Assembly (NCBI GenBank): GCA_014804655.1
Contig: JAAUZK010000031.1
Span: 12,477 to 76,476 of the forward strand
From: Lachnospiraceae bacterium
Lineage (GTDB): Bacteria; Bacillota; Clostridia; Lachnospirales; Lachnospiraceae
Reading direction: 5' to 3'
Length of the DNA stretch: 64,000 nt
Every line of letters starts with the position of its first letter. Position 1 is the first letter of the stretch. A program made the position numbers and the translations under genes. Positions 24,175 through 63,647 of the stretch are shown here, in pieces. Below the pieces are notes generated by a model. That model was not told the DNA's origin. It worked only from the letters and a program-made list of their open reading frames with translations, and did no database searches.

Positions 24175-24691
24175 AATCGAGTAGGAGGTAGGCGATTATT
24201 TCGCCTACCGACCTCTCACACCACCGTGCGTACCGTTCGGTACAATATATCGAGTTACACTCTTCATTACCCGTTCTACCGCCTGTTGAACAAACCGGTC
24301 TACTACGGTTGGTACTCCAAGATTTCTTACTCCGCCGTCAGGTTTTGGTATCTCCACCCTGCGGACTGGTTGCGGTTTGTACTTCCTTGTCCGCAACTGT
24401 TCTCTGATACTTTCGCCGTTTTCCGAAAGGTAATCGCCAAGCTCTTCTACGTTCATGCCATCCACACCTGCCGCATTTACTCGTACTTCCGGCAACCTTT
24501 TGGACTTCAATGCTTTTAGCCGCCTTATCCTTATTTCCGAGCCTTATATGCGGTTCCTGTCCGTCAGGTCAGAGGTTTGCCTTCAGATTCCGTCTCACGG
24601 CGGACACCCTTGCTGTTCGGCTATGTGCTTCGTCGTTGCCTGCGCGCACTCGGGACTTTCAGCCGTTAGAGTTCGCCCATGCTGGGCGAAC
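24175..24691 (-). mobile_element. Internally deleted group II intron
   Basis: On the minus strand the element begins GTTCGCCCAGCATGGGCGAA and continues with the domain I signature CTAACGGCTGAAAGTCCCGA. It runs into the start of a reverse-transcriptase frame and then jumps directly to a domain V-like end (CGCACGGTGGTGTGAGAGG) and a domain VI hairpin (GGTAGGCGA/TCGCCTACC), finishing near CTCCTACTCGAT. Most of the protein and domains II-IV are missing, so it cannot move by itself. Boundaries are estimated to within a few bases from remembered intron ends, not from an alignment. Confidence 0.75.
24205..24510 (-). pseudogene. Group II intron reverse transcriptase, N-terminal fragment
   Basis: 101 residues keep only the start of an LtrA-type reverse transcriptase: AAGVDGMNVEELGDYL, then YKPQPVRRVEIPKPDGGVRN, GVPTVVDRFVQQAVERV. 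After this the family sequence stops abruptly and the frame reads through intron RNA domain V sequence to a stop. The catalytic YADD region, maturase and any endonuclease domains are absent. It is nonfunctional as an enzyme. Confidence 0.85.
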
Positions 24692-57135: not shown

Positions 57136-57202
57136 ACAATTCTGTCTCCGTTCTCCGTACTAAATATAATTGCTTTTACTGTTTTAACATAACCGATACC
57201 CA

Positions 57203-57354
57203 GCGCAGATGAACGTGAATATCTTAAGAAGCCCCTCAAAAAGCGTCAGCGCTTAACGAGGTTATGAGTTGCAAAGCAACTCACGAGTTTAGCGTCTGCT
57301 ACGCTTTTTGCGGAGCGAAAGCGCGGCTTCGTAGATATTCACTTTCATCTGCGC
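57203..57354. repeat. Palindromic intergenic element A, copy 1
   Basis: 152 bp bounded by 22-base inverted arms (GCGCAGATGAACGTGAATAT and its complement) with one mismatch. Inside, CAAAAAGCGT pairs with ACGCTTTTTG, and GAGTTGC-AAA-GCAACTC forms a smaller hairpin. The same layout recurs at 63445-63581 with compensating changes in the arms. Confidence 0.75.
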
Positions 57355-57751
57355 GTACGGTTTACATAACTTACAAGCAGTAATATTTTTACATTTATTA
57401 CATCATAGCGGAATTCCCCCCATTTGTCATCTTAATTATTTCTGTACATCCGCACCCACCGAAACAGGCACAGATCTTCCGTTGCTTCCTGACCGAAATC
57501 ATGCTAAAGTATGAAAAGAATATCTCTGAATCAGCTCTGCGCACTTGCTGCGCTGAGCGTACACGCGCCATGCTGCACATGCAGCTTGTCTGCATGAGAG
57601 CATAGTGTGCATCACAATACTTGCACCGGACTTTTCATGGACATTTGTATCCGAGAAGACATGAGGTGCAAGTATGGGATATAGACTGCAACAAACTGCT
57701 CTGACACGTAGACTGACATTAAATACGCAGATGTTAAGAAGGAGAACTCTT
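57355..57751. other. Intergenic region with several stem-loops
   Basis: No gene. TACTTGCACC (57618-57627) and GGTGCAAGTA (57665-57674) form a perfect 10-bp stem about 80 bases before the small membrane protein start, on its transcript strand. Further GC-rich palindromes lie at 57535-57600. A structured leader RNA or small RNA is possible; no known family was recognised. Confidence 0.4.
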
Positions 57752-57958
57752 ATGAAAAAAAAGACCCCGAAACAGATCGTCGCCCTTACATGCGTCGTTC
57801 TGCTCGTTGCCATGTATGTGATTACTCTGATTGCAGCATGTCTGGATTCAACGGCTACCGGACGGCTCTTCGCAGGATGCCTTGCGCTCACGGTAGCCCT
57901 GCCGATTTTATGCTGGATTATCATTCATTTTTGTAATAATTCTCAAGATCAATCATAA
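57752..57958 (+). CDS. Small two-helix membrane protein
   Basis: 68 residues: MKKKTPKQ, one helix (IVALTCVVLLVAMYVITLIAAC), a short DSTATGRLFAGC turn and a second helix (LALTVALPILCWIIIHF) with a short polar tail. Proteins of this plan are common in Lachnospiraceae but have no known function. The ATG at 57752 has AAGGAG 8 bases in front. Its stop overlaps the end of the opposing ABC permease gene by 6 bases. It is one of three plus-strand genes in the window. Confidence 0.75.
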   Translation: MKKKTPKQIVALTCVVLLVAMYVITLIAACLDSTATGRLFAGCLALTVALPILCWIIIHFCNNSQDQS

Positions 57959-63444: not shown

Positions 63445-63581
63445 GCGCAGAGGGAAGTTAATATCTGAAGGAACCCCTCAAAAAGCGTCGGCACTTGACG
63501 AGGTATTTCACGAGTCTAGTGTCCGCTACGCTTTTTGCGGAGCGAGAGCGCGGTGACGCAGATATTAACTTTCCTCTGCGC
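63445..63581. repeat. Palindromic intergenic element A, copy 2
   Basis: 137 bp with 23-base inverted arms (GCGCAGAGGGAAGTTAATAT and its complement), one mismatch. The core CCCCTCAAAAAGCGTC and CTACGCTTTTTGCGGAGCGA match copy 1 at 57203-57354; the small GAGTTGC hairpin is lost. The rest of 63323-63647 shows no gene. Confidence 0.75.
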
Positions 63582-63647
63582 GACCGGTTTTGCCGCGTGT
63601 AAAAAGCAACTTTCCTGCCGGCCTGCCGGACTGAACATCACAAAATC

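Follow-up and report, generated by a model that had tools for sequence, protein, structure and literature searches.

What keeps two long palindromes complementary while the sequence of their arms changes is the question raised by this window, the whole 64,000-nt stretch of Lachnospiraceae DNA analysed here. A first-pass annotation had described the two palindromes and suggested that they were either a structured RNA or a mobile element of palindromic form; the coordinates that it gave were correct and bound the core well (Table 1), and both arm positions that it saw changing jointly on the two sides do so, from GATG/CATC to GAGG/CCTC and from GTGAA/TTCAC to GTTAA/TTAAC. Alignment of the cores adds three compensated pairs absent from that annotation (CAG/CTG to CGG/CCG, GCGC/AGCG to GCAC/AGTG, and TTAAC/GTTTA to TTGAC/GTCTA), and a further difference between the copies is an entire 15-base hairpin segment. 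The apical hairpin TGAGTTGCAAAGCAACTCA of copy 1 gives way to a short loop in a 145-nt type of element, of which copy 2 is an example. The energies of folding as + strand RNA, -82.5 kcal/mol for copy 1 (z -10.9) and -76.2 kcal/mol for copy 2 (z -9.4), were equalled by none of 200 shuffles. A covariance model derived from a set of 33 diverse copies matches copy 1 at 172 bits (E 3.6e-38; G000:C31:69679-69830, +) and copy 2 at 145 bits (E 1.3e-31; G000:C31:75921-76057, +). The flanks of copy 1 (left, TTACTGTT..; right, ..CAGTAA) constitute a weaker outer layer with a weak outer inverted repeat, and the right end of copy 2, GTGTAAAAAGCAAC, is a variant form of the ..GTGAAAAGTAAC terminus seen in a second subtype. 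Each copy lies between divergently oriented genes, which for copy 1 holds if a small ORF with a likely start at 57752 is a gene.

Table 1. Parts of the two palindromic element copies, in window positions
Feature	Position	Strand	Basis
Copy 1, complete palindromic element (arm-core-arm), 152 nt	57203..57354	+	covariance model, fold
Copy 1, left arm	57203..57225	+	pairs with 57333-57354
Copy 1, right arm	57333..57354	+	fold; family covariation
Copy 1, tandem G.A motif, 5' strand CGAG	57257..57260	+	opposite 57284-57287
Copy 1, tandem G.A motif, 3' strand CGAG	57284..57287	+	family conservation
Copy 1, optional apical hairpin TGAGTTGCAAAGCAACTCA	57265..57283	+	alignments
Copy 1, GNRA mini-hairpin GC[GAAA]GC	57315..57322	+	GNRA count of the family
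Copy 1, outer left flank, consensus TTACTGTTCAGACATAACCAATACCCA	57176..57202	+	conserved among congeneric copies, alignment
Copy 1, outer right flank, CAGTAA at the end	57355..57383	+	conserved among congeneric copies
Copy 2, complete palindromic element without apical hairpin, 137 nt	63445..63581	+	covariance model, fold
Copy 2, left arm	63445..63467	+	fold
Copy 2, right arm	63559..63581	+	fold
Copy 2, GNRA mini-hairpin GC[GAGA]GC	63542..63549	+	sequence
Copy 2, outer right flank, end GTGTAAAAAGCAAC	63582..63610	+	sequence, alignment

Absence of other copies together with absence of a transcript was the result that the first-pass annotation had named as counting against it; other copies proved numerous. 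BLAST detected the element at no fewer than 40 places in the host genome (at least 40 at E <= 1e-27), and the covariance model returned 83 matches in its 4.55 Mb, corresponding to approximately 75 places once eight weak reverse-strand images of stronger matches were removed, a figure that includes some partial copies at contig ends. Such partial copies were seen at the ends of host (G000) contigs C3, C11, C20, C27, C31, C50, C51 and C54, and the window's own contig starts with one; the repeat thus seems to break the assembly and to be, in practice, a cause of broken assemblies. In a Lachnospiraceae sample, 71 of 200 genomes and 70 of 199 genera carry the element, often in multiple copies. Among 245 genomes sampled across the class, it is present in seven of nine Lachnospiraceae and in none of the 236 other Clostridia, and viral contigs, plasmids and phages gave no match. 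At E values of up to 5 for copy 1 of the window, and of up to 1 for 13 distant loci, Rfam has no family at the element, and no prior description was found in a literature search of partial coverage. The family of long hairpin elements is apparently previously undescribed. Candidate structured RNAs from the human microbiome include 250 of 3161 called palindromic (Fremin and Bhatt 2021, PMC8040213); these were mostly assigned to terminators, the examples shown being from Bacteroidetes, and they could include relatives of the Lachnospiraceae element.

The element is a branched hairpin of 135-185 nt on the + strand, built in layers. The outermost layer is variable and in the host genus reads TTACTGTTCA.. 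and ..TGAACAGTAA, or belongs to a TTACTTTTCA.. subtype. It surrounds the arms, a clamp of ~20 bp, inside which lies a brief conserved single-stranded stretch of the UUAAGGAG type. The junction carries a 2-bp mini-hairpin capped by a GNRA tetraloop, next to a conserved middle stem of the AAGCGUCAGCGCUUA..UUAGCGUCUGCUACGCUU type that in the host genus contains a tandem G.A internal loop, and the apex is either an apical loop or an optional apical hairpin. Conservation is lowest in the ends and arms and highest in the core. In congeneric genomes (G059, G026, G028, G039 and others) the core is kept and the arms are unrelated, yet they pair over ~20 bp; in distant copies the core is likewise retained and the arm sequences are wholly different, still complementary. 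The extreme case is genus g200, in which arms, middle stem and apical stem are private to nearly every copy in a genome, the constants being a CRGUACUUA/UUAGUACYGCUACGU motif and the GNRA mini-hairpin. A second subfamily with different arms, GCGTCGGATAGTATGCAGATGTCATAAGGAC, occurs in the host's own genus (L128:7024-7175, +, and in the flanks of L005, L014 and L016), in some cases adjacent to a first-subfamily copy. A shortened copy at L164:653-720 (G000:C18:91552-91619) has arms and mini-hairpin and has lost the middle and apical stems.

A consensus structure with covariation statistics, which the first-pass annotation had proposed as a check, supports the RNA fold. The covariance model comprises 44 pairs, 35 of which show changes on both sides, as do all 19 arm pairs. 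The share of cells that pair is 95.8%, compared with 79.2% when shuffled and 31-45% when the partners are slid, and the covariation score is 0.50 against 0.19; none of 500 shuffles attained any of the observed measures. With this consensus structure and significant covariation, the element is a candidate structured RNA family in the sense used by Rfam. Full copies number 141, grouped into 95 loci. The tetraloop is GNRA in every one of 141 congeneric copies (GAAA in 68, GAGA in 34, GGGA in 22 and GGAA in 17) and, with few exceptions, in a further 94 copies from other sources, where GCAA and GCGA appear as extra variants. Three copies depart from GC closing pairs, having GU/AC stems and still a GNRA loop, as in GU[GCAA]AC. 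The tandem G.A motif (CGAG/CGAG, G.A/A.G) is present in 138 of 141 congeneric copies, and its closing pair has changed from C-G to U-A in 16. Mispairs in the arms, aligned with both types scored as plain mismatches, are more often G.U than A.C (162 versus 102, p 2.7e-4, the counts being not fully independent), and copy by copy G.U prevails in 78 versus 39 (p 4e-4). The excess falls short of significance in some subsets on their own, and the g200 subset shows no difference. A strand-neutral process would predict equal counts, so the excess favours RNA of the + strand. The model itself scores the same places at ~175 bits on the + strand and ~35 bits on the - strand. Together, the GNRA loop, the tandem G.A motif, the G.U excess and the gap in strand score favour a + strand RNA.

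Evidence for mobility of the element comes from comparison of sites between genomes. At the L024 site three relatives are empty, and GCTAYA flanks the insert at both ends. At the L008 site the element, outer ends included, stands in opposite orientations in related species (L008 and L187 versus L186 and L188), either through inversion in place or through independent insertion. In genome G168, which has 13 matches, the copies read are near-identical and some are in tandem at a 164-bp period; one such array (L253 1651-2235, G168:C59:97650-98234) consists of three near-identical 164-bp units, each a complete element plus spacer. Copies in the host genome are mostly common to related species, which suggests low current activity. 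Thus, the RNA half of the original proposal is strongly supported by covariation and strand-specific motifs, and the mobile half in part: the many copies at sites without relation to one another, their independent amplification from lineage to lineage, the empty site and the inverted copy speak for it, and neither a consistent target duplication nor a mobiliser was found. At the site orthologous to L036, two relatives (L175 and L177) have a different palindrome, GACCTTGGCTGCTAAGCAGCCAAGG.., where the host has the element; it may belong to a separate family of palindromic repeats that occupies this site as well. Insertion of the element into a pre-existing palindrome was considered and rejected, with no excess of inverted arm extension into the unique flanks.

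On balance, the window palindromes probably belong to a dispersed Lachnospiraceae repeat that is non-autonomous and forms a structured RNA. The conservation of the fold although both arms have been replaced by unrelated sequence suggests that it is the fold that counts; what is recognised and selected would be the + strand RNA fold, with the arms serving as an interchangeable clamp that presents the core to a factor. Since the core is constant and pairing is all that is required of the arms, any factor spreading or using the element should read the core, probably as RNA. A trans-acting factor of this kind may have permitted separate copying bursts in different genera, with an RNA stage in the spread of the element, and if the burst in each lineage began from a single founder, lineage-specific arms such as those of the host genus and G168 would result. 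Resident copies would then change by ectopic gene conversion between copies, by deletion and by occasional inversion, and would either sit harmlessly between genes or form RNA hairpins in read-through transcripts. A possible extension, which we put forward tentatively, is a Lachnospiraceae-wide class of RNA-structured mobile elements, equivalent in bacteria to SINEs, whose core would be read by a putative protein that copies the element whatever its arms. The recognised core would then be the GNRA mini-hairpin plus the middle stem, and copying regardless of the arms would allow their wholesale exchange with pairing kept. A search for the mobiliser gave negative results. At nine loci in genomes with few copies the neighbouring genes are unrelated, and neither candidate enzyme, compared with the element subfamilies pooled, is positively associated with carriage: Y1 transposase occurs in 34 of 71 carriers (48%) and 79 of 129 non-carriers (61%; p 0.075, in the wrong direction), and reverse transcriptase in 38 of 71 (54%) and 77 of 129 (60%), respectively. 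A search of the host genome for an autonomous partner, with the arm and end patterns, returned, among the matches inspected, full, shortened or truncated copies only.

The same palindromes could be a miniature transposon (MITE) operating at the DNA level, with a transposase acting on the ends and with arm covariation arising not from selection on RNA but from gene conversion between copies and from the correction of quasipalindromes by template switching. We consider this unlikely. One argument for it comes from orthologous sites, where 59 Watson-Crick pairs changed on both sides versus 51 on one, with ~4 doubles expected; core haplotypes there are exchanged as blocks, which accounts for much of the double changes and suggests that copies convert one another, as this reading predicts. 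These changes are therefore not clean proof of selection for pairing. One locus, L099, has a unique arm change on both sides (GCGAAG../..CTTCGC). Palindrome-type deletions at other orthologous sites and the empty L024 site would also suit a MITE, as would the weak outer inverted repeat, TTACTGTTCA..TGAACAGTAA, but this repeat is confined to the host genus and conserved terminal inverted repeats (TIRs) are absent: the gradient of conservation, from variable ends to a constant core, is the reverse of that of a TIR-defined MITE. Nor does a process acting on DNA ends sit well with a GNRA loop and tandem G.A motif kept on one strand only, or with G.U outnumbering A.C. A consistent target duplication, moreover, was not found: the 22 loci compared agree on neither a length nor a position at the outer ends, and the direct-repeat signal there is marginal (reached in 4 of 300 permutations).

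Vertical inheritance without mobility, the copies being paralogous small-RNA genes or cis leaders and each an individual RNA, is less probable again. It draws on the persistence of orthologous copies between species, in which core identity is 0.944 compared with 0.892 in adjacent intergenic DNA and 0.943 in farther, mostly genic DNA, and on g200, whose copies have their own arms, are retained as orthologues between species and in several cases stand 20-35 nt before start codons, for example that of a rapZ-like gene. The element's right end is also the nearer to neighbouring genes: in the host genus the 3' ends of neighbours lie 38 nt from it versus 240 nt from the left end (p 6e-4), and in other genera their 5' ends lie 50 nt away versus 138 nt (p 0.0016). 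The promoter and context results stand against this reading. The 78 loci of the genus are intergenic, two overlapping an ORF of at least 90 aa by mechanical ORF calls, on which the context counts also rest; flanking genes are arranged -- at 30, -+ at 24, ++ at 19 and +- at 5, and + strand copies show no preference for co-directional genes (19 ++ versus 30 --). No inward sigma-70-like promoter enrichment was detected, and orientation and neighbour are inconsistent. The near-identical dispersed and tandem copies, the empty site and the inverted copy show a multiplying repeat. As a separate matter, an orientation linked to replication was considered in a two-contig genome and rejected, the strands being mixed along the chromosome.

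That the palindromes are bidirectional transcription terminators sharing sequence by chance is very improbable: gene 3' ends do face the right side of the element at a median of 31-38 nt, but the stem has no adjoining U-run (and no T-run adjoins the arms in the flanks), convergent gene pairs are the rarest context (5/78) and divergent pairs common (24/78), and a terminator would not need a core of three stems bearing GNRA and G.A motifs.

Taken as a structured-RNA repeat, the element can be compared with the intergenic palindromic repeats already known, and by analogy with bcr1, ERIC, NEMIS and REP it would work as they do. Among the closest is bcr1 of the Bacillus cereus group, likewise dispersed, intergenic, non-coding and folded as a stem-loop, and of similar size; it is set apart by its taxon and by its description, which includes a fixed target duplication. 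In the Lachnospiraceae element no fixed target duplication is seen, and the arms are swapped wholesale between lineages with the core kept. The bcr1 repeats measure 147-167 bp (Table 3, PMC2267715). ERIC/IRU, the NEMIS/Correia repeats of Neisseria and the palindromic repeats of Yersinia are, like the element, imperfect intergenic palindromes of ~100-170 bp in tens of copies, but they are defined by conserved terminal repeats or by one conserved sequence, whereas here the arms vary freely and the GNRA/tandem-G.A core is fixed. The known cases among them act at the RNA level once transcribed. A role in mRNA stability has been described for repeats of this type (PMC2267715). The REP/BIME sequences (GTAG and CGTC families) are also small intergenic palindromes, some of them dispersed by a Y1 transposase. 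REPs are 20-40 bp long with a tagged foot (PMC3733652), unlike the Lachnospiraceae element, which is 135-185 nt with a branched core, no fixed foot tetranucleotide and no link to RAYT/Y1.

Lachnospiraceae are among the commonest gut bacteria, and about one third of the genera sampled carry this repeat, in up to ~75 copies per genome. The element is a clear case of an RNA fold outliving nearly all of its sequence. Its covariance model is ready for use in annotation, and what recognises the core, and whether the element is moved as RNA or as hairpin DNA, can now be tested. Elsewhere in the window, positions 24451-24604 on the - strand match group II intron D1-D4-3 at 103.9 bits. The sole reverse transcriptase found in the host genome (G000:C27:22211-22831) is on a different contig, so this intron may be ORF-less or truncated.
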